The notes beneath the pieces are model-generated. The model did not search any database and was not told where the DNA came from. It saw nothing but the letters and a program-made list of their open reading frames with translations. Source: Methanocella paludicola SANAE (GTDB lineage: Archaea > Halobacteriota > Methanocellia > Methanocellales > Methanocellaceae). From it: 64,000 bases of DNA. This document shows positions 1,936-46,695 of this stretch, piece by piece. A program made the translations under genes and the position numbers. How positions within the stretch are numbered: position 1 is the first letter of the stretch; each line of letters opens with the position of its first letter. The DNA lies in contig NC_013665.1 in NCBI RefSeq assembly GCF_000011005.1, forward strand, positions 1-64,000. Direction: 5' to 3'.

Positions 1936-2277
1936 CTACTTTTTCTCTTCCGCTTCCTTACCCTCTTCTATCAATTCCTTAACGCGCTGGCCGCCCTTCT
2001 TCCCGCCGATCTCGCCCCCTTTGTGGCCTATCTCCTGGTAGAACTCCTTCCCGTGGGTCCTCGCGGTCGCCTCCCCGCCTTTGTGGCCGCCAACTTCCCC
2101 GCCTTTGTGGCCTATCTCCTGGTAGAACTCCTTCCCGTGAGTTTCAGACGTCTTCTCCCCGCCCTTGTGGCCGATCTCCTGGTAGAACTCCTTGCCGTGG
2201 GTCTTCGCGGTCTTCTCCCCGCCCTTACGGCCCGCCTCCTCGACGGTCATATCGCCTTTCTCCTCTTTTTCCGCCAT
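1936..2277 (-). CDS. KGG-repeat stress protein, 113 aa
   Basis: A small, very hydrophilic protein built from repeats of the GHKGGE type separated by THGKEFYQEI spacers. KGG motifs recur about every 20 residues, and charged Lys/Glu segments sit at both ends. It belongs to the GsiB/Con-10-like family of KGG proteins, which in bacteria and fungi are stress or desiccation induced; a molecular function has not been settled. A shorter paralogue with the same opening MTVEEAG and the same spacer is at 27075. The DNA repeats are nearly identical, so the repeat number may change by recombination. It faces cdc6 tail to tail. Confidence 0.85.
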   Translation of the reverse strand: MAEKEEKGDMTVEEAGRKGGEKTAKTHGKEFYQEIGHKGGEKTSETHGKEFYQEIGHKGGEVGGHKGGEATARTHGKEFYQEIGHKGGEIGGKKGGQRVKELIEEGKEAEEKK

Positions 2278-24761: not shown

Positions 24762-24836
24762 GGGACAATGGGGTAGCCTGGTCCATCCTCGTGCGTTTGG
24801 GACGCATGAACCCCGGTTCAAATCCGGGTTGTCCCA
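24762..24836 (+). tRNA. tRNA-Pro (anticodon TGG)
   Basis: A cloverleaf folds fully: acceptor GGGACAA/TTGTCCC, anticodon stem GTGCG/CGCAT around loop TTTGGGA, T arm CCCGG TTCAAAT CCGGG, discriminator A. The anticodon is TGG, decoding proline. No CCA is encoded. An AT-rich ACATATATATC near 24720 may be the promoter box. A decayed receiver-like remnant and a PAS kinase gene follow its 3' end. Confidence 0.95.
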
Positions 24837-24903
24837 CTTTCTTTTAAGAAGTAAGTGGTATCTCTTATATCCGGACTTTTTCTTGCAAAAACCGCTAATA
24901 ATA

Positions 24904-25020
24904 AACTATGTGCCGACACGTCAAGCCAGTCATGCCCGGCATGCGGCGGCCCATCATGACGACGTCGAGCTTTGCGTTCTTCGCCATGTCGACGGCCCCG
25001 ATGCCGTTCGTAGCCGGCAT
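24904..25020 (-). pseudogene. Receiver-domain-like remnant
   Basis: The minus strand can be read as 39 codons containing GIGAVDMAKNAKLDVVMMG and RRMPGMTGL. This closely follows the middle of a response-regulator receiver domain (AVEMAKxxKPDVVLMDIRMPGMDGL), except that the phosphorylated Asp is Gly. There is no complete frame on either side. It lies between tRNA-Pro and a PAS histidine kinase gene on the opposite strand. A fragment of a universal stress protein (DVVMMG) is the alternative reading. Confidence 0.5.
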
Positions 25021-25081
25021 CGCAGCCCGGACCTGAAAGGATTAATATTAATTCGGGCCATCTAAATATTTACGGGATCTC

Positions 25082-26992
25082 ATGAGCTTTAAACCCGCCC
25101 CCTCCAACCCTCCAGACGCAGGCAGGACGACGGAAGAGCTTCTATCCGAGCTCCAGGCGCTACGGGCCCGGAACGCCGCCCTCGAGGAAAGCGAGCAGCG
25201 ATACCGGGAGGCGGTCGAGAGCGCCAACAGCATCATCATCCGCTGGGACATGGAGGGCAACTTGACTTTCTTTAACGAGTTCGCCGAGAAGCTGTTCGGC
25301 TTTTCGGAGGACGAGGTGCTGGGCAGGAACGTGGTGGGGACGATCGTGCCCCCGTCCGAGTCCACCGGCCGCGACCTGGCCGCCATGATAGACGATGTCC
25401 TGGCGCATCCCGAGCGCTACGAGCTGAACATCAACGAGAACATCTGCAAGAACGGCGAGCGGGTAACGATCGCGTGGACGAACCGGGCTATCCGCGATGA
25501 GCACGGGAACGCCGTGGAGATCCTCTCCGTGGGCAACGATATCACGGAGCGCCGGCGGGCAGAGGAATCCCTTCAGTTCGAGCGGCTGCAGCTGCTGAGC
25601 ATCTTCGACAGCATCGATGAGGTCATCTATATCTCGGACCCGTGCACGTACGAGATCCTGTATGCAAACAAGGCGATGCAGGACAAGTTCGGCAAGAGCC
25701 TCATTGGAGGTATTTGTTATAGGGAGATCCAGGACAGGGACGCCCCTTGCGATTTCTGCACGAACGGCATCATCCTCAATAATAAGGACGAGCCCTGCCG
25801 GTGGGAATTCCATAATCCCACGGTGAACCGGGACTTCGGGATCGTGGACCGGATCATCAAGTGGCCCGACGGCCGGGACGTGAGGTTCGAGATCGCCCTG
25901 GACATCACCGAGCGGAATCAGGCCAGCGAGTCGCTCCGGGAGAGCGAAGAGGACCTGAGGGCGGCCTTCGAGCAGGCGGCCGTAGGCATGACGCACGTGA
26001 GCAGCGACGGCAGATTTTTAAAGGTAAACCAGAAATTCTGCGACATCACAGGGTATACCCGGGAAGAGCTTTTAAAAATGTCCGCCCAGGACATCACGCA
26101 CCCGACCGACATGGACGAGGAAGCCCGGCTCATCGAAAGCTTATTGTCCGGCCGGCTGTCCACATTCTCAAGCGAAAAACGCTATATAAGGAAGGATGGC
26201 GCCGTCGTCTGGGTGAACTTGACCGTCACCCCCATATTCCATAACGGGGCGCTGGCGTACCTGATGGGGATCACCGAGGATATCACCGGCCGGAAGCAGG
26301 CTGAAGCGGCGTTACAGGAAGCGAAAGCCCAGGCCGAGCTTTACGTGGACCTGATGGGCCACGACATCAACAACATCCACCAGGCGGCCCTGGGCTACCT
26401 GGAGCTCGCACGGGATATGCCCGGCGATAGGGAGGAGCACCTGGATATGGCTATAGAGGCCCTGATGAGGAGCACCAGGCTCATCAGCAACGTGCGTAAG
26501 CTTCAGAAGATCCCGAACGCCGGCCATGCCCACGAGGTGGACCTGTGCGAGGTGCTGGGCGAGGTGTACGGCGAGTACGCGAGGTCCCCCGGCAAGACGG
26601 TGATGCTGAGCCTCAACGGCCGCGAGCATTGCCACGTCCTCGCGGACGACCTGCTCCGGGACGTGTTCTCGAACCTCGTGGGCAACGCGGTGAAGCACAC
26701 CGGGAAGCGCGCGAGCGTCCTCATCAGCCTGGACGAGGCACAGGAGGGCGGGAAAGCGCATTACCGGGTCTCGGTGGAGGACGACGGCCCCGGCATCCGG
26801 GACGAGCTCAAGAAGACGCTCTTCAGCCGCTCGCTCAAGGGGTCGCCACGGGCAAAGGGCATGGGCCTGGGGCTGTATATTGTGAAGACGCTCGTCGGGA
26901 ACTATGGCGGCATCATACGTGTCGAGGACCGCGTAAGGGGAGACCATGCGAAGGGCGCCCGGTTCGTGATCTTGCTCCCTATGATAAAATAG
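25082..26992 (+). CDS. PAS-domain histidine kinase, 636 aa
   Basis: A soluble sensor kinase. Three PAS domains follow a short coiled coil: about 40-160, 165-275 and 285-405. The second contains CYREIQDRDAPCDFC, a cysteine-bearing PAS type. The dimerisation region reads AELYVDLMGHDINN with the candidate phospho-His at 427. The ATPase domain is intact: N box FSNLVGNAVKH, G1 VEDDGPGI, G2 AKGMGLGLYIVK. No membrane helix is seen. There is no intact response regulator next to it. It belongs to the same family as the three kinases at 39.7-45.6 kb. Confidence 0.92.
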   Translation: MSFKPAPSNPPDAGRTTEELLSELQALRARNAALEESEQRYREAVESANSIIIRWDMEGNLTFFNEFAEKLFGFSEDEVLGRNVVGTIVPPSESTGRDLAAMIDDVLAHPERYELNINENICKNGERVTIAWTNRAIRDEHGNAVEILSVGNDITERRRAEESLQFERLQLLSIFDSIDEVIYISDPCTYEILYANKAMQDKFGKSLIGGICYREIQDRDAPCDFCTNGIILNNKDEPCRWEFHNPTVNRDFGIVDRIIKWPDGRDVRFEIALDITERNQASESLRESEEDLRAAFEQAAVGMTHVSSDGRFLKVNQKFCDITGYTREELLKMSAQDITHPTDMDEEARLIESLLSGRLSTFSSEKRYIRKDGAVVWVNLTVTPIFHNGALAYLMGITEDITGRKQAEAALQEAKAQAELYVDLMGHDINNIHQAALGYLELARDMPGDREEHLDMAIEALMRSTRLISNVRKLQKIPNAGHAHEVDLCEVLGEVYGEYARSPGKTVMLSLNGREHCHVLADDLLRDVFSNLVGNAVKHTGKRASVLISLDEAQEGGKAHYRVSVEDDGPGIRDELKKTLFSRSLKGSPRAKGMGLGLYIVKTLVGNYGGIIRVEDRVRGDHAKGARFVILLPMIK

Positions 26993-39275: not shown

Positions 39276-39290
39276 AAAGCGCCCCGACTG
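39276..39290. repeat. Copy of the tRNA-Arg 3' end (att-like direct repeat)
   Basis: AAAGCGCCCCGACTG here is identical over 15 bases and in the same orientation to 45786-45800, which spans the last 11 bases of tRNA-Arg and four bases beyond it. An imperfect copy (GAGCGCCCCGAGTG) is at 42253-42266. The two copies bracket the histidine kinase array. This is the pattern left by insertion at a tRNA 3' end, and the length equals the 14-15 bp target duplications reported for casposons. Confidence 0.55.
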
Positions 39291-39369
39291 AACGCCCTAA
39301 CATGAGGTTAAGCTCTGCATTGGGCAAAAAGCCGTACGACTACCAGTATTTCCTTAGCATAACGTACAA

Positions 39370-39602
39370 ATGCTCGCAAACTACATAGTCGACAAGCACA
39401 AAGAACTACAATTCAACGTGCCTGATGTCACGATAAAGCGGGATGACGATAACAAGACCAGGGAGTATATCCTGAACATGACGCCCGAACATCGGAATGA
39501 ACTGGGCATTAACAAATCTACGCTTTGGTACATCCGGAAGAACCCCGCGAGGGTAAGAAGGTCAAATTATACTATAAGGTTAAGGCTAAAATCTCAAAAT
39601 AA
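39370..39602 (+). pseudogene. cas1-like C-terminal remnant with frameshifts
   Basis: The frame from 39370 gives KHKELQFNVPDVTIK, REYILNMTPEHRNELGINKS and TLWYIRKN, which follow the C-terminus of archaeal Cas1 (REKILxMTPEERKxLGINKSTLWYxKK). After 39541 this frame loses similarity. The frame from 39543 continues with REGKKVKLYYKVKAKISK and stops at 39602, which is the normal Cas1 ending. So one frameshift separates the last part. The catalytic half is not present upstream. This is a dead fragment 80 bases inside the att-like copy at 39276. Confidence 0.62.
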
Positions 39603-39738
39603 TAAGTATGGTAATTGATATATTAGCCTTTATTATATTACAAAATATTTATAATAATTCATGTAAGTTTATCTCCGATATAAATATCAAGCATAGGGAT
39701 TACTATCCAATGGATATATTTTCATTTGGGTCGGTGGT

Positions 39739-42099
39739 ATGGGATTGAAATCCGAGTCCGGGAAGAAATCTGGCAGCACCAGTATTGTAGATTCCGGGGA
39801 CAAGGACAGGATTATCGCCGAGCTAAAAGCCCGAAATAAGGAGCTCGAAGAATATAAGGCTAGAGCGGAGCGGCTGGAAGCCGATTTGCGGAATAACGAG
39901 GATACTACCCGCCAGTTGCTGGAGCAGAAGTTGTATGGGGTGTGGGTTAATGTCGACGGTAAGATCGCCTATATCAACGAGGTCGGGGCCAAAATATTGG
40001 GGGCATCTAGTCCCGGCGAAGTAGCAGGAAAATCGGTATTGGATGAGATCATCCATCCGAACTATCGTGACATCGTGAGGGACCGCATCAAGGCTATGAG
40101 CCATGGCGGCAGTGCCGTGCCCATGATCGAGGAGAAGTACGTCCGGGTCGACGGCCAGGTCGTGGACGTGGACGTCTGGGCGATGAGGTTCGTTTACAAG
40201 GGCGAGCCTGCCATCTTCGTGGCGTTCAAGGACATCACCGAGCGCAAGCGGGCCGAGGAAGCGCTGCGGGAAAGCGAGGAAAAATACCGTTTCCTGGTGG
40301 AGAACTCGAAGGACGTCATCTGGAAGATGGACCTCCAGGGCCGGTTGACGTTCATCAGTAGCAACGTGGAGAGGGTGACCGGATACAGGCCCGGCGAGAT
40401 GGTGGGTAAACCCATATGGGATTTCATAGCGCCGGAGTGCCACGGATCCATCAAAGAAAAATTGCTTAAGCGCATGCGCGGAGAGGATATCCCTCCTTAC
40501 GCAACGTGGATCATCAATAAGGCGGGCGACCTTATTCCCATAGAAGTGGCCACCACGGCCATTACCGACAGGGGCGGGAGGATCGTGGGCGTGCAGGGCA
40601 TATCCCGGGACATTACCGAGCGCAAGCGGGCCGAGGAGGCTCTCCGCGAGAGCGAAAGGAAGTTCCGGGTGCTGACGGAGACTTCCCCGGTCGCTATCTT
40701 CCTCTACCAGGGCGAGAAGTACGTTTACGTGAACCCCATGGCCGAGGTATTGACCGGCTACTCGCGAGACGAACTTTTAACCATGGATGCATGGGATTGG
40801 ATCCACCCTGAGTTTAAGTTCATGGTGAAAGAGCGGTCGAGGAAAAGACAATTGGGCAAAAAGGTGCCTAACCAGTACGAGGTGAAGTACCGTGCCAGGG
40901 ATGGCCGGGAGGGCTGGGTGGATTTCGCCACAGGCCTCATTGAATACGGGGGCAAACCGGCAGGCCTGGCGGCGACCTTCGATGTTACTAAGCGCAAGCT
41001 GGCTGAGGAGGCAGTGAGAACGGCCGATGTCCGGTTCCGGTCGCTGATCCAGAACTCGTCGGATATCATTCGTATCCTGGATAAGGAGGAGCATATCATC
41101 TATGAATCGCCGTCATCGGAAAAGATACTTGGTTATCCGCCCGGCTATACGCTGGGAAAGTCGCCCTTTGAATTCATCCATCCGGATGACCGGGAGCGTG
41201 TGAGGAACGACCTGGGAGAAGTCTATGAAGGTACGAACCCTGGGACGCCCACCGAATTCCGGATCAGGAAAGCAGATGGCTCGTACCTGGAAGTCGAGTC
41301 GATCGGTAATAACATGATCGGCATCCGTGGGGTGGATGGGATAGTGATCACGACGCGGCCTATTACCGAGCGCAAACGAGCCGAGAAGGCACTTAAGGAA
41401 GCAAAAGCCCAGGCCGAGCTGTACGTGGATTTAATGGGCCACGACATCAACAATATGAACCAGGTAAGCCTCGGGTTCCTCGAGCTGGCCCATAACATCA
41501 TAGAGTTGGAGGGCAAACTCGGCGAGGACAACATCGTTCTCCTGGATAAGGCGATGAATTCGCTGAAGGACAGTTCCATGCTTATCGAAAGCGTGCGGAA
41601 GATTCAGCAGGAAAAGATGGGCTTGTACGAGCCCCAGGTGCTCGACGTTGGCACCGTCGTCGGGGACGCCATAAAACATTTCGACAGAATCCCGAAAAGG
41701 GATATTAAGATTAATTACAGCCAGGATGATCATTATTTCATCAAGGCCAACAGCCTGCTGAAGGACGTGTTCATCAACCTCATCGGTAATGCGATAAAAC
41801 ACTCGAAGGGCCCTCTGGTGATTAACATCCGCGCGTGCCAGGTCATCGCTAAAGGTAAAAGGTATTGCCGTGTGGAAGTGGAGGACAATGGCTCCGGCAT
41901 CCCCGATTCACTCAAGGCCACCTTGTTCGACCGTCTGAACCTCGCCGCCACCAGGGCGAAGGGCAAAGGCTTCGGATTGTGCCTGATTAAGATACTCGTG
42001 GATGACTATCATGGTATGTTCTGGGTCGAGGACCGCGTGAAAGGGGACCACGCACAGGGCGCCCGGTTCGTGGTCCTGCTTCCTGCCATTGAGAAATAA
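39739..42099 (+). CDS. PAS-domain histidine kinase, 786 aa
   Basis: A soluble sensor kinase. A coiled coil (about 28-60) is followed by four PAS domains (about 65-170, 175-295, 300-420 and 425-545), each ending in a DITERKRAEEAL-like linker. The kinase region has LYVDLMGHDINNMNQ with the candidate phospho-His at 568. The ATPase domain is complete: FINLIGNAIKH, VEDNGSGI and AKGKGFGLCLIK. No response regulator is adjacent. The last codons and the 70 bases after the stop closely match those of the next kinase gene, showing that the two arose by duplication. Confidence 0.92.
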   Translation: MGLKSESGKKSGSTSIVDSGDKDRIIAELKARNKELEEYKARAERLEADLRNNEDTTRQLLEQKLYGVWVNVDGKIAYINEVGAKILGASSPGEVAGKSVLDEIIHPNYRDIVRDRIKAMSHGGSAVPMIEEKYVRVDGQVVDVDVWAMRFVYKGEPAIFVAFKDITERKRAEEALRESEEKYRFLVENSKDVIWKMDLQGRLTFISSNVERVTGYRPGEMVGKPIWDFIAPECHGSIKEKLLKRMRGEDIPPYATWIINKAGDLIPIEVATTAITDRGGRIVGVQGISRDITERKRAEEALRESERKFRVLTETSPVAIFLYQGEKYVYVNPMAEVLTGYSRDELLTMDAWDWIHPEFKFMVKERSRKRQLGKKVPNQYEVKYRARDGREGWVDFATGLIEYGGKPAGLAATFDVTKRKLAEEAVRTADVRFRSLIQNSSDIIRILDKEEHIIYESPSSEKILGYPPGYTLGKSPFEFIHPDDRERVRNDLGEVYEGTNPGTPTEFRIRKADGSYLEVESIGNNMIGIRGVDGIVITTRPITERKRAEKALKEAKAQAELYVDLMGHDINNMNQVSLGFLELAHNIIELEGKLGEDNIVLLDKAMNSLKDSSMLIESVRKIQQEKMGLYEPQVLDVGTVVGDAIKHFDRIPKRDIKINYSQDDHYFIKANSLLKDVFINLIGNAIKHSKGPLVINIRACQVIAKGKRYCRVEVEDNGSGIPDSLKATLFDRLNLAATRAKGKGFGLCLIKILVDDYHGMFWVEDRVKGDHAQGARFVVLLPAIEK

Positions 42100-42432
42100 T
42101 ATTATCCACAGATTTTTATAAGAAAAAGTCCAGATTTAAAAGATACCTTATGCCCCGAAATAGACGTGGGACGAACTGAATTTGGACCGTCTGTCGAGAG
42201 TTGTTTCGGATAATTCAATTCGATATTATTGGAGATTTAAACCGATATGTATGAGCGCCCCGAGTGAACGCCCCAACACGGCGTTAGGCTCTACATTAGA
42301 CGAAAGTCGTACGACAAACATTACATTTCTGTCAATCAATATACGGCTAAGTTTCATTGTAATGCGACTGCAATATATAATTATACGCATGAAATTCACC
42401 AAGCACTGTGTTCTACCGGGAGGCACATCGTC
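42100..42432. other. Intergenic junction with duplicated sequence blocks
   Basis: No gene. Three blocks are present. 42100-42170 matches the DNA after the next kinase gene (43375-43447). 42154-42191 matches 45678-45715 near tRNA-Arg at 32 of 38 positions. 42253-42315 matches 39277-39340, including the att-like core and AACGCCC...GTTAGGC, which can pair into a small hairpin. An open frame of 84 codons (42182-42436) is not supported. GGGAGG at 42418-42423 is the ribosome site of the next gene. Confidence 0.7.
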
Positions 42433-43374
42433 GTGAAGCGTGTTCCTGATCACCCGGGTACGGGTCTGACAGGGCTGACGGCTGCAAAGATAGTGCTCAT
42501 CTACGTCTTCTTCGGCGTTATCTGGATCCTGACCAGCGACCTGCTCGTCAGCCGCCTGTCCCCGAACAGTACGATCTATACAACGCTGAGCATCGCCAAA
42601 GGCTGGATGTTCATCCTGGCCACTTCAGTGCTCCTCTATTTGCTGATACGACGCTATGCTGCAGAGCGAAACGAGATCGAGGCCAGGTTGCAGGAGGCCA
42701 GGGCAAGGGCCGAGCTATACCTGGACCTGATGGGCCATGACATCACCAACATGAACCAGGCCGGGATCGGTTTCCTAGAACTGGCGCAGGAACAGCTTAA
42801 GCTGAGCGACGAAGATCGACAGCTGATCGCCATCCCGCAGCATTCGCTCCGGAACAGCACCAGGCTCATCGAGTACGTACGGAAGCTGCAGCGTGCCAGC
42901 GCCGGCGGCGCGCTCCGCCCGGTGGACCTCGGGCCGGCATTGGGCTCGCTGGCCACGGAGTACCCTGCCCAGGACGGCCGCGGAATAACGATCAGTTACG
43001 CAGGCGGAAGCTGCCACGTCATGGCGAACGACATGCTGCCCGACCTGTTCACCGGCATCATCGACAGCATCTCCCGGCGCTCCGCCGGGCCAGCAGCCGT
43101 TGATGTCCGGCTTGAACGTACGGAGGCCGGGGGTGTACAATACTGCCGCGTGGTGTTCGAGGGCAGCGGCTGGTCGTGCCCGCCCCAGGCGAAAGAGGCG
43201 CTTGCCTACGACCGGCTCAAAGGGTACGGGAAGACCGTGGACCGGGACATCAGCATGTACCTTGTCCGTGAGCTGGCAGAGAACTACCGGGGCAGCGTGT
43301 ATATGGAGGACCGCGCGGCCGACGGCCAGGACGGTTGCCGATACGTGGTGCTGCTACCGGCCATTGAGAAATAA
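42433..43374 (+). CDS. Membrane histidine kinase with degenerate ATPase domain, 313 aa
   Basis: Two membrane helices (about 18-38 and 55-72) lead straight into the kinase core. The dimerisation His is kept in LYLDLMGHDITNMNQ (102). The ATP-binding half is wrecked: where the related kinase has FINLIGNAIKH this one has FTGIIDSISRR, losing both Asn; where the relative has VEDNGSGI it has VFEGSGWS, losing the Asp. The terminal region (YVVLLPAIEK) is again conserved. So it probably cannot phosphorylate but could be phosphorylated by a partner. GTG start; GGGAGG lies nine bases upstream. The frame is intact. Confidence 0.85.
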   Translation: MKRVPDHPGTGLTGLTAAKIVLIYVFFGVIWILTSDLLVSRLSPNSTIYTTLSIAKGWMFILATSVLLYLLIRRYAAERNEIEARLQEARARAELYLDLMGHDITNMNQAGIGFLELAQEQLKLSDEDRQLIAIPQHSLRNSTRLIEYVRKLQRASAGGALRPVDLGPALGSLATEYPAQDGRGITISYAGGSCHVMANDMLPDLFTGIIDSISRRSAGPAAVDVRLERTEAGGVQYCRVVFEGSGWSCPPQAKEALAYDRLKGYGKTVDRDISMYLVRELAENYRGSVYMEDRAADGQDGCRYVVLLPAIEK

Positions 43375-43525
43375 TATTATTCTATGATTTTTATAGGAAA
43401 AGTGTCCAAAACGCTGAACTGGCTATACACCCCGATATAGACGTGGGGGGATATAGACGGAGCCCATGATTTTGCCTTACTCATAACGAAGCGTTCTTTA
43501 AAAAGCAGATTTGAACCCTTGACTT

Positions 43526-45574
43526 TTATTCTGCTTTTATGGCTGGCAGCATGACCACGAACCGGGCGCCCTTCGTATGATCTCCTTTTACCCGGTCCTC
43601 GACCCACACGCGGCCGCCGTAGCTGTCCACGAGCGATTTTACTATGAACAGTCCGAGGCCACTGCCACGAGTCCTGGCGCCGCTATGGATTCTCCGGGTG
43701 AAGATTCTCGGTTTTAGGTCGTCGGGTATCCCCGGCCCATCATCCTCTACAATGAACTTGTTGTAATTCCTGCCATTAAACACAATGATTTCGAATTTGA
43801 CGTTGATGGTCGGTTCCGGGCCGGCATGCTTGATTGCGTTGCCTACGAGGTTCTCGAATACCTCGTACAATAAATCATTGGCCATGACCGTGCAGCCCGG
43901 TGGTAGCTTATAGTTGAAAGTGGCTTTCACGCCGGGCATGTTCGAGTAGTGGCCGAGCACCCTCATGATGGCCTCACACGCGTCCACCGCATACGGCTTT
44001 AGTTCTCCGGTCTGGGACTTCTGCAGCTTCCTCACGTTATCGATTAGTCGAGTGCTGTTCTCCAATGCACCCATGGACTTCAGCAATAGCTCCTTATCCT
44101 TTTTATCGATGTCCGGCGATTTCAACGCTAGCTCGAGGAACCCAATGCCGACCTGGTTCATGTTGCGGATATCGTGGCTCATCAGGTCCACGTACAGCTC
44201 GGCCTGAGTTTTAGACTCTTTAAGCTCGTTCTCCGCATTTTTAATGCCCGTAATGTCGAACAAAGTCGTAATAATAGTCGGTTTACCCTCAAAGGTGAAT
44301 ACTCCTCCCGTCAGGTTAACCCATTTGGTTTGACCATCCTTTGTTAAAATCCTGGTCTCATAGCTAGTTGACGCCGATTTGCCGGCAAGCCTATCAGAGG
44401 CACGCTTTTTAATAGACTCCCTCTCGTCTTCAGCGAATACTTCCCAGAACTGCATTTTCAAAAGCTCGTCCTTAGAATGCCCCGTAAGCTCTACAGTGGC
44501 GTTGTTAACATATAATAAATTACCACCCCTATGGACGGCTATAGTGACGAAGGACGTGTCAGCTAATGCACGGAACTTCTCCTCGCTCGCCAGCAACTCT
44601 TCCTCTGCCTGCTTGCGCTCGGTAATATCCTGGACGGTCCCGAACATTTTTATTGGTGCTCCTCCCTGACCATAGGTGACTTCACCTTCCGCATGGATAA
44701 TGTGCTCGCTTCCATCGGGCCAGATGACACAATAATCGATGCTATAGGGCTCTCCTTTATACAGGGCCGCTTCGACCGCCCGGTTAACTCGGTCCTTGTC
44801 CCCGGGGTAGAGCGTATCGATGAATTCTGCAAATGTGATGTAGTCCCTGCGGTCCAGGCCGAATACCCTGTAGAACTCGTCGCTACAAAATACCTTATCT
44901 TCCTTCACGTCCCACTCCCAATTGCCCAAATGCGTGATACGTTGAGCTTTTGCTAAGTTGGCCTCGCTCTCTCGCCGCGCCTCCTCGGCTCGCTTGCGCT
45001 CGGTGATATCGATGCCCATTTCGAGCACCAGCGGCGTACCGTCGACGTCTGTGAACGGGTAATCATAAATTTGATATATGTTGCCCATCTTATCCGTCCA
45101 TTCCCATTGCTGTGGCAGAAGAGTGTCGAACACCCTAAACGTCGGGCAATCGGGGCAGGGCGCATCACTGCGTTGAATGAGCTCGTAACACGGACGGTTC
45201 TCGGGCTCACCGAAAATTTTACGGAAGGTCTGGTTGGCAAAGCGTATGGAGTGGTCCCGGGCCTGTAAATATATGAAAGCCGGCAGATTTTCCAGCACGT
45301 CGAAGAGAAGCTTCCGCTCGAATTCGACGGCATCGGCGACCTTGCGGCGGGCCTCGTCCTCCCTCAACTCGTCGTGCTGCGCTTTGATGCGGTCACGTTC
45401 GGCTTCGAGGTCGTACAGGCCACGATATAACTCCTTCTTGCCCGCGACCCGCTCATAACGATCCACTGCGGCCTTAAGCCGGGAATAATGGCCACGGAGG
45501 GCCTTCAACTCTTCGAGTAGCTCTTTCTTGTCCTTATCTTCATCCTTCTTTTGTAAATCCGGCTTGGAGACCAT
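43526..45574 (-). CDS. PAS-domain histidine kinase, 682 aa
   Basis: A soluble sensor kinase in the opposite direction. A coiled coil (about 10-85) precedes three PAS domains (about 90-200, 205-325 and 330-450). The first contains CYELIQRSDAPCPDC, a cysteine-bearing PAS like the second PAS of the kinase at 25082. The phospho-His region is LYVDLMSHDIRNMNQ (467). The ATPase domain is intact: FENLVGNAIKH, VEDDGPGI and RGSGLGLFIVK. Its C-terminus faces the degenerate kinase. No response regulator gene is nearby. Confidence 0.92.
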   Translation of the reverse strand: MVSKPDLQKKDEDKDKKELLEELKALRGHYSRLKAAVDRYERVAGKKELYRGLYDLEAERDRIKAQHDELREDEARRKVADAVEFERKLLFDVLENLPAFIYLQARDHSIRFANQTFRKIFGEPENRPCYELIQRSDAPCPDCPTFRVFDTLLPQQWEWTDKMGNIYQIYDYPFTDVDGTPLVLEMGIDITERKRAEEARRESEANLAKAQRITHLGNWEWDVKEDKVFCSDEFYRVFGLDRRDYITFAEFIDTLYPGDKDRVNRAVEAALYKGEPYSIDYCVIWPDGSEHIIHAEGEVTYGQGGAPIKMFGTVQDITERKQAEEELLASEEKFRALADTSFVTIAVHRGGNLLYVNNATVELTGHSKDELLKMQFWEVFAEDERESIKKRASDRLAGKSASTSYETRILTKDGQTKWVNLTGGVFTFEGKPTIITTLFDITGIKNAENELKESKTQAELYVDLMSHDIRNMNQVGIGFLELALKSPDIDKKDKELLLKSMGALENSTRLIDNVRKLQKSQTGELKPYAVDACEAIMRVLGHYSNMPGVKATFNYKLPPGCTVMANDLLYEVFENLVGNAIKHAGPEPTINVKFEIIVFNGRNYNKFIVEDDGPGIPDDLKPRIFTRRIHSGARTRGSGLGLFIVKSLVDSYGGRVWVEDRVKGDHTKGARFVVMLPAIKAE

Positions 45575-45677
45575 GACGCCCCTTAATTTTTATCATACGC
45601 ATACGCCCCATATAAATTCTTTCAGAACACGGCATTCTCTCTAAACGCTCCCGATATTCATTTGTTGTTGAATCGGG

Positions 45678-45715
45678 CCCGATATAGACGTGGGACGACA
45701 CGAATTTGAGCCGTC
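45678..45715. repeat. Flanking repeat shared by the kinase units
   Basis: CCCGATATAGACGTGGGACG and the following 18 bases recur at 42154-42191 (32 of 38 positions). The first 17 bases recur exactly at 43431-43447. Here the block lies about 75 bases beyond the 3' end of tRNA-Arg, and the copy at 42154 lies at a similar distance from the imperfect core at 42253. It marks the right ends of the duplicated units. Confidence 0.6.
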
Positions 45716-45789
45716 AATTTATAGGTTTTGTTTAAGTAAAGTACTCAGGATATTGATCCTGATCGTGGGATTTATACCAAAGAGTAAAG

Positions 45790-45861
45790 CGCCCCGACTG
45801 GGATTTGAACCCAGGTCTAGAGCTCCGCAGGCTCCAAGGATGTCCACTACCCTATCGGGGC
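45790..45861 (-). tRNA. tRNA-Arg (anticodon GCG)
   Basis: On the minus strand: acceptor GCCCCGA/TCGGGGC, D loop with AG, GG and A at the conserved places, anticodon stem GGAGC/GCTCT around loop CTGCGGA, T arm CTGGG TTCAAAT CCCAG, discriminator G. Anticodon GCG decodes CGC/CGU arginine codons. No CCA is encoded. Its 3' end points toward the kinase array, and its last 11 bases are repeated at 39280-39290. Confidence 0.93.
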
Positions 45862-46027
45862 TTCATGTAAATCGCGGATACGCTGCGCTCTTAGTTGACG
45901 TTACATTACATAAACTTATCGACCAGTTATGAGAAAAAAATGATCAATGGTGCCAGGCCATCGTGGATGTAAAAGCTGCGCTATGGATGCATTACGGTAG
46001 ATCTTCATCGAGCGCAGATATGGCTTT

Positions 46028-46528
46028 TTACTTTTTAGCGGATTTTACCGGCTCATCGTCCCTGGCCGCGATGAACACGCTCTTCTTATGCTGGGGCTCG
46101 TCCCCGCCCTTGGCGTTGCCCATGTACCGCCCGCGGCCGTCCGCGACGATGAAGTGGTCCGCGGGATTATCCTCGACCTCCACTTCCTCGATGACGCCGG
46201 TGGCGGGGTTCTGCTGGAGCTTCTTGATCTTGTGGCCGCCCTGCGGCTTCGCGGGCTCGCGCTTATCGACGGCCGCCCCTACGGGGGCGATGACCGTCTG
46301 GCCGTTGCCGGCATCCATGGCCGACAGCGCGGCATCCAGCATCCTCGCGAGCTCGACCACCTTAAGCTCCAGCCTGGCCAGCTTGCTCTCCATGTCGGCC
46401 GGGTCGCTGCTAAGGCTCGCATCCACCTGCTTCAAGGCCTCGGCGATGTCCGAGTTATCCACATGCACGCCCATAGCGGACAGCTTTTGCTCAATCCGCT
46501 CGAAAACGGTAGGTCCTGCACCATCCAT
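46028..46528 (-). CDS. Hypothetical coiled-coil protein, 166 aa
   Basis: Not recognised. The N-terminal half is helical with a coiled coil (MESKLARLELKVVELARML, about 47-65). The middle is a linker with KREPAKPQGGHKIKK. The C-terminal part is small and polar (DHFIVADGRGRYMGNAK) and rich in charged residues. No membrane helix or metal motif is seen. TAAGGGA precedes the start. It stands alone between tRNA-Arg and the prenyl synthase gene. Confidence 0.68.
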   Translation of the reverse strand: MDGAGPTVFERIEQKLSAMGVHVDNSDIAEALKQVDASLSSDPADMESKLARLELKVVELARMLDAALSAMDAGNGQTVIAPVGAAVDKREPAKPQGGHKIKKLQQNPATGVIEEVEVEDNPADHFIVADGRGRYMGNAKGGDEPQHKKSVFIAARDDEPVKSAKK

Positions 46529-46695
46529 ATAATATCCCTTACCTAACTAAGATTTTAAATGCGAGGCAGTCGCTTAAAGCTTTTGGTACGCCCCAGAAAA
46601 GGCCATTTTCCGTGCCAACGGAAATTATTTTATCCAGTCAGACAATATACAGCACATATTACCCTGACGCAATGGTAATCGAAGGATGTTTAGCG

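Follow-up and report, generated by a model that had tools for sequence, protein, structure and literature searches.

The 64,000-nucleotide window analysed here comprises bases 1-64000 of the genome of the methane-producing archaeon Methanocella paludicola SANAE, a single contig of 2,957,635 bp, and contains an array of three histidine kinase genes (HK1, HK2 and HK3) beside a tRNA-Arg(GCG) gene. Very probably, this array is a decayed cluster of casposons, together with shortened, non-autonomous derivatives, that carried PAS-domain histidine kinases as cargo. As far as the sequence can be read, this interpretation is supported by relics of the Cas1 transposase (casposase), terminal inverted repeats (TIRs), target-site duplications (TSDs), a leader motif, a constant gene order, the recurrence of these features in the genome and, in a sister genome, an intact casposon built in the same way. 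An earlier note on this DNA had proposed a decayed integrative element of the casposon kind, loaded with sensor kinases and tied to a tRNA 3' end. That proposal was right in spirit: its observations were partly confirmed and its interpretation was partly supported, but the insertion repeat it had chosen, a 15-base match to tRNA-Arg, gives way to 14-bp duplications at 42157, 43434 and 45681 that are tRNA-Pro-like.

Layout of the array and its Cas1 relics

The array can be divided into three units (coordinates in Table 1). Unit 1 consists of a Cas1 relic, HK1, a TIR, a TSD and a leader; unit 2 of a shorter Cas1 relic, HK2, a TIR and a TSD; and unit 3, which is leader-proximal, of an eroded TIR, the inverted HK3, a TSD and a leader, beyond which tRNA-Arg(GCG) follows after 75 bp. 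The earlier note had recognized both the three kinases of one family and a cas1-like remnant, but had overlooked the TIR and TSD tracts (42100-42192, 43375-43466 and 45678-45715). HK2 is a probable pseudokinase with hydrophobic, membrane-like N-terminal segments.

The remnant upstream of HK1 is indeed derived from Cas1. Its best match in the PDB was 6opm_A, annotated as 'CRISPR-associated endonuclease Cas1' (E 7e-7), which is the M. mazei casposase, and a two-sequence comparison with the intact 409-amino-acid Cas1 of the sister genome G002 gave a nearly full-length alignment at 41% identity (E 2e-29). When 85,000 species genomes were scanned, its closest relatives proved to be Cas1 proteins on Nitrosopumilus contigs (58% identical); neither Pfam nor NCBIfam detected the remnant. 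At least six further degenerate copies are present in the genome, where such relics are C-terminal only, extend up to ~100 codons and are frameshifted. All copies but one lie immediately upstream, on the same strand, of a kinase of the window family, which has 52 members in the genome, and seven or eight kinase genes stand directly downstream of a Cas1 C-terminal relic. At 1273.0 kb, a TBP-like fragment adjoins a Cas1 relic.

Inverted repeats, target duplications and leaders

The TIR arms are 57-60 bp long with CCCC/GGGG ends, as in casposons, and recur at ~18 places in the genome, seven behind a kinase and one behind a kinase 3' remnant; at these eight places the TIR starts at the kinase stop codon or at most ~15 nt from it. 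Outside the closely examined stretches, this census of TIRs and TSDs was made with two DNA searches and one pattern scan. Each element in the window retains one good arm, while both arms are present at 1874298-1874431 and 1876611-1876738. A TIR end of M. paludicola reads ...ATACCCC. After the CCCC of the TIR come 14 bp that conform to GAAATAGAAGTGGG, within the 14-15 bp of casposon TSDs. Beyond this sequence, a second inverted arm follows at six internal junctions (43434, 730773, 1868623, 1874358, 1876671 and 1879142), and a degenerate tRNA-Pro 3' half follows at 42157, 45681, 362329, 723710, 730878, 1345259 and 1882104; the site at 929651 behaves like these leader-bearing sites with respect to the leader motif, and that at 429252 has a TSD without the motif. 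The TIR-TSD-TIR symmetry was equalled in none of 500 shuffles at 1874358 and 1876671, and in 3 of 500 at 43434 and 1879142.

A TCAAATC-like motif (at least five of seven positions) was located exactly 8 bp from the TSD at seven of the nine leader-bearing sites, and an eighth site had a perfect motif at 9 bp; among 20,000 shuffles, none gave more than three such sites out of nine. As expected, the motif was absent from all six internal junctions. The pattern TCAAATY-N8-CCC, found at the leader sites and at tRNA-Pro, is that of the tRNA 3'-end target of casposon family 2. The casposase of A. boonei integrates beside its tRNA-Pro and requires a TCAAATC whose end lies 8 bp ahead of the TSD, as well as CC as the first bases of the TSD; its duplications span 14-15 bp, and the element end that it recognises is TCCCC (PMC6614799). 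The spacing, the motif, the initial CC of the TSD, the TSD length of 14-15 bp and the TCCCC ends are those measured for that enzyme. It may be that the nine leader sites go back to duplication of a single tRNA-Pro site and are not independent insertions, but independent or not, they look like casposase target sites.

The true tRNA-Pro(TGG) lies within the window. The TIR, TSD and leader consensus derived from the kinase loci matched 24814-24904, at its 3' end (E 5e-16), and in three relatives the likeness around this tRNA ends at the tRNA end or a few bases from it, the TIR flank being absent. Together, these results indicate that an element end is attached to tRNA-Pro in M. paludicola. Within this locus (24762-26992), tRNA-Pro and its TIR relic are followed by a universal-stress-protein-like fragment and then by another kinase of the family. 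At 723502-723783, tRNA-Glu(CTC) has a TIR, TSD and leader ~110 bp away from its 3' end, an arrangement like that at the tRNA-Arg of the window.

The repeats might instead be read as a small palindromic family, such as a miniature inverted-repeat transposable element, a repetitive extragenic palindrome or a terminator hairpin, that happens to lie behind kinases and has nothing to do with the Cas1 tails. We consider this unlikely. Several copies located away from kinases are indeed palindromes, with 14-bp centres that resemble one another; at nine sites, however, the centre gives way to flanking DNA instead of a second arm, with the casposase leader motif 8-9 bp away at eight of the nine. Moreover, one arm adjoins the genuine 3' end of tRNA-Pro, several of the same kinases have a Cas1 relic on their other side, and the TIR of an intact casposon in a sister genome is likewise palindromic.

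That casposon occupies positions 2695204-2709774 of contig C1 in G002, at tRNA-Arg(CCT), and contains Cas1, HNH, PolB, Sir2-like cargo and one internal insertion sequence; HNH and PolB are our own readings of its open reading frames from their sequences. It has a perfect 39-bp TIR beginning GGGGATAATGATATCCCC, with a GGGG start, and a 14-bp TSD, CCCGCTGGCTTTTA, which begins in the last five bases of the tRNA. Read from Cas1 toward the tRNA, its order is Cas1, cargo genes, TIR, TSD and tRNA, so that the order in the window (Cas1 relic, kinase, TIR, TSD and tRNA-like leader) is reproduced in an element that serves as a positive control. We found no report of this casposon in the literature searched.

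Table 1 Features of the kinase array and of the tRNA-Pro locus in the window
Feature	Position	Strand	Evidence or remark
tRNA-Pro(TGG), intact; casposase-type target (TCAAATC-N8-CCC)	24762-24837	+	
tRNA-Pro leader of M. paludicola, TCAAATCCGGGTTGTCCCAC			
Casposon TIR relic at tRNA-Pro 3' end	24850-24901	-	Kinase-locus consensus; missing in three relatives
Further kinase of the same family	25082-26992	+	245 bp from tRNA-Pro
15-mer, left copy of the earlier note	39276-39290	+	Left boundary of casposase relic; unlikely to be a target duplication
Casposase (Cas1) C-terminal relic, frameshifted, ends ...GKKVKLYYKVKAKISK*	39291-39602	+	PDB match; alignment with G002 Cas1
HK1, PAS-sensor histidine kinase, 786 aa	39739-42099	+	Pfam PAS x4, HATPase_c; H, N and G boxes present
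TIR (inner to outer), from HK1 stop codon, ends GCCCC	42100-42156	+	nhmmer E 7e-12, model of 12 arms; genome copies
14-bp TSD, GAAATAGACGTGGG	42157-42170	+	
Leader, degenerate tRNA-Pro 3' half	42171-42192	+	CCAAATT (reverse strand) 8 bp from TSD
Second, shorter casposase relic, upstream of HK2	42254-42317	+	81% to 39278-39329; left end is the 'imperfect core copy'
HK2, degenerate kinase, 313 aa	42433-43374	+	N box and first G box lost
TIR, from HK2 stop codon, ends ACCCC	43375-43433	+	nhmmer E 1e-12
TSD, GATATAGACGTGGG, at TIR-TSD-TIR (tandem) junction	43434-43447	+	
Eroded inverted TIR arm (GGGATATAGACGG...) of next element	43448-43500	+	Inverted symmetry equalled in 3/500 shuffles
HK3, PAS-sensor histidine kinase, 682 aa; cargo of leader-proximal element	43526-45574	-	
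TSD, GATATAGACGTGGG	45681-45694	+	Identical to 43434-43447
Leader, degenerate tRNA-Pro 3' half	45695-45715	+	TCAAATT (reverse strand) 8 bp from TSD
15-mer, tRNA-side copy	45786-45800	+	Also at tRNA-Arg(GCG) in G001 and G002
tRNA-Arg(GCG), intact	45789-45861	-	3' end 45789/45790

A larger array elsewhere in the genome

At 1868623-1882117, which was the best array seen in the genome, five TSDs of the same orientation separate four cassettes of 5.7, 2.3, 2.5 and 2.9 kb, and a leader follows the last. One cassette holds ABC transporter genes and the 3' remnant of a kinase, and the other three hold a TBP paralogue, a PadR regulator and a TIR-domain protein (here the protein domain), respectively; no casposase was found in any of the four. 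One would expect such a layout if short elements had been inserted time after time beside one leader by a casposase provided in trans. The intact TBP paralogue that is cassette cargo lies at positions 14698-15270 of L168, one of the two stretches (L168 and L197) that cover this array.

Kinases and their flanks

The kinases and the DNA around them appear to have had different histories. HK1 and HK2 share only 38% identity and fall in separate parts of the kinase tree, yet their flanks are ~81-84% alike. Across the genome, Cas1-tailed kinases are found in scattered positions when a tree is made of the catalytic cores, and their upstream tails show 75-87% DNA likeness even when the sensor parts are unrelated. 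The flanks are younger than the kinases that they flank, so the arms were common to elements with different cargo. The kinase tree rules out a simple tandem duplication of a single unit.

These observations also bear on a broader alternative, in which ordinary tandem duplication produced the kinases, gene conversion between paralogues spread their flanks, and the Cas1 tail was a chance passenger near the promoter. The 52 kinases of the family, the likeness of the upstream regions of unrelated kinases and the fact that tandem duplication is common for archaeal kinases (PMC5847659) would all suit it. However, the contrast between the divergent HK1 and HK2 and their similar flanks argues against it, and the TSDs, the leader motifs and the kinase-free cassettes are left unexplained, so that we regard it as improbable as an account of the array. 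Duplication and gene conversion may nevertheless describe the route by which cargo was exchanged. Such exchange would have gone by recombination between element arms or between kinase genes.

Several observations weigh against a casposon origin of the array. In the window, neither a left TIR nor a left TSD could be found for the element of HK1, that of HK2 is ill-defined at its left boundary, and HK3 is inverted, with its right TIR eroded at 45665-45680. In the genome, no gene matched PF01867 at E 0.001, nothing matched the PolB of the sister casposon, no PolB relics were found, and ~10 TIR copies have no neighbouring kinase. The possible common descent of the nine leader sites weakens the motif statistics. 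Finally, the Cas1-tailed kinases do not group in a single clade, and for the most part they are ~45-50% identical in their catalytic cores. Multiplication of one casposon along with one kinase is thus too simple an account and, given the absence of PolB, the elements are relics and non-autonomous derivatives rather than complete casposons; it is in this form that we retain the casposon interpretation.

The 15-base repeat at tRNA-Arg(GCG)

The earlier note had bracketed all three kinases between two copies of AAAGCGCCCCGACTG, taken as the attachment or target duplication of an element inserted at tRNA-Arg(GCG). Exact copies do occur at both sides of the array in the same direction, and the right-hand copy overlaps the tRNA 3' end by 11 nt, as had been claimed. 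In the Rfam search, tRNA alone reached the gathering score. The 15-mer is not common in the genome, where these are its only two exact copies, but rarity alone is insufficient to make it a scar, and repeats of similar length abound in the window: there are ~40 blocks of exact direct repeats of at least 15 bases (many of 15-17 bases), of which we judged roughly 25 to connect unrelated genes, and 150 of 63,986 window positions have an exact copy within 10 kb. We estimate the chance of such a match at one of the three tRNA 3' ends here at 2-10%.

In favour of the bracket, the repeat shared by 39278 and 42254 begins at the core, with unlike sequence to the left of it, and the interval between tRNA-Arg and the left neighbours of the array varies among relatives. 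However, no inverted repeat was found beside or inside the bracket ends (479 of 500 shuffles were equally good); the 11-nt overlap compares with 4-7 nt in published casposons (PMC4046053); the TSD predicted for a casposon at this tRNA is GGCGCTTTACTCTT, of which there is no copy at 39276, the left 15-mer being out of register for such a site; and real TSDs and TIRs sit within the supposed element. Given the wrong register, the lack of an inverted repeat and the abundance of similar repeats, insertion at tRNA-Arg with the 15-mer as core, by a casposon or an integrase, was rejected as very improbable, while the casposon itself was kept. The match to tRNA-Arg is probably an incidental coincidence.

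The imperfect core copy reported at 42253 exists (42252-42266, three mismatches), but it belongs to a casposase-relic repeat and not to a copy of the tRNA: it is part of a longer likeness between 39278-39329 and 42254-42305 (81%), which it has in common only with the 39276 copy and which is casposase-derived to the right of the 15-mer. The casposase match is suggestive on that side (8-37 of 1,000 shuffles as good) and not on the left. A hybrid junction, in which 42154-42266 would duplicate the 3' flank of tRNA-Arg, was rejected, the intervening 60-70 bp being unlike that flank (108-249 of 1,000 shuffles as good).

tRNA-Arg(GCG) is present in three relatives (G001-G003), with the identical 15-mer in two (G001 and G002). 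All three have retained the genes to the left of the array, 1.5-3.4 kb from this tRNA and with other genes between them, and the interval holds neither kinases of the window array nor a second core copy. The interval is thus variable, and the second core copy is specific to the M. paludicola genome, but the clean empty site that the earlier note had proposed as a test was found in none of the three, other genes filling the interval in each. On the other side of the tRNA, 45861-46612 is a rearrangement breakpoint at which GGPP synthase/CDC48 are joined to tRNA-Arg(GCG) in M. paludicola; in the relatives they lie elsewhere, and other genes come after the tRNA. At the far end of the window (2018-2230), direct repeats of 17-38 bases with a spacing of 24-144 bases possibly encode a short repeat protein.

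A possible history of the array

We infer that the insertions were made by a casposase, that the kinases moved as cargo and that they were swapped between shared arms by recombination. In such a history, the casposase would cut at the tRNA-Pro 3' end or a look-alike (TCAAATY, 8 bp, CCC), and elements with GGGG/CCCC inverted repeats would be joined there with duplication of 14 bp, giving the order casposase, kinase, TIR, TSD and tRNA-like leader. Recurrent insertion at the same leader would produce a tandem stack in which the 14-bp duplication is the sole separator, as may be seen at 43434 and in the five TSDs at 1868623-1882117. The casposase and polymerase would later have been lost, with kinase genes, TIRs, TSDs and Cas1 3' tails persisting.

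More tentatively, these loci might represent casposase-built cassette arrays, in which short, non-autonomous mini-casposons were inserted serially at a tRNA-derived leader with the newest leader-adjacent, leaving CRISPR-array-like 14-bp repeats between host genes (kinases, TBP, PadR regulator, ABC transporters and TIR-domain protein) and offering a route for the spread of a large sensor-kinase repertoire. Kinase cargo and tandem mini-casposon arrays would be new relative to known casposons, and the literature searched yielded no account of casposons in M. paludicola, nor of kinase cargo or arrays of this kind. Casposons have been proposed as the ancestors of the CRISPR adaptation machinery, a history in which the transition from one transposon to an array with leader and repeats is documented least; a genome in which casposon-type cassettes form direct-repeat arrays at tRNA-like leaders would be a natural intermediate for study. 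The arrays also suggest that mobile elements were a route by which sensor kinases multiplied in individual archaeal lineages, kinases whose origin is usually credited to duplication or transfer with the mechanism unspecified.

Comparison with known systems

The closest known systems are the family 2 casposons (AciBoo-C1, NitNCS1-C1 and those of Methanosarcina), with which the array shares a Cas1 transposase (here a relic), palindromic TIRs with GGGG/CCCC ends, 14-bp TSDs starting with CC and a tRNA 3'-end target with a TCAAATC leader motif. AciBoo-C1 and NitNCS1-C1 also target tRNA-Pro, and tandem insertion is known for the family. In contrast to these, the array has no Cas1 open reading frame or PolB, histidine kinases are the cargo directly inside the TIR, there are many copies per genome, and cassettes of 1.3-5.7 kb lack a casposase. 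The casposon of G002 has the same gene order and 14-bp TSD as the window elements, but differs in its tRNA-Arg(CCT) target, in its Sir2-like and other cargo and in the presence of PolB and HNH, and its Cas1 tail is only 49% identical to the relics of the window genome.

Tn7-type and integron-like tandem islands are alike in being gene islands formed by repeated insertion at one safe site, but the recombinase is different, and no integrase gene was seen here. With CRISPR arrays, the loci share a leader, a regularly repeated short target duplication and leader-adjacent insertion by a Cas1 enzyme; however, the units here are kilobase-sized, gene-bearing elements with TIRs rather than spacers, and no Cas2 is apparent. 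The likeness is one of layout and not of membership.

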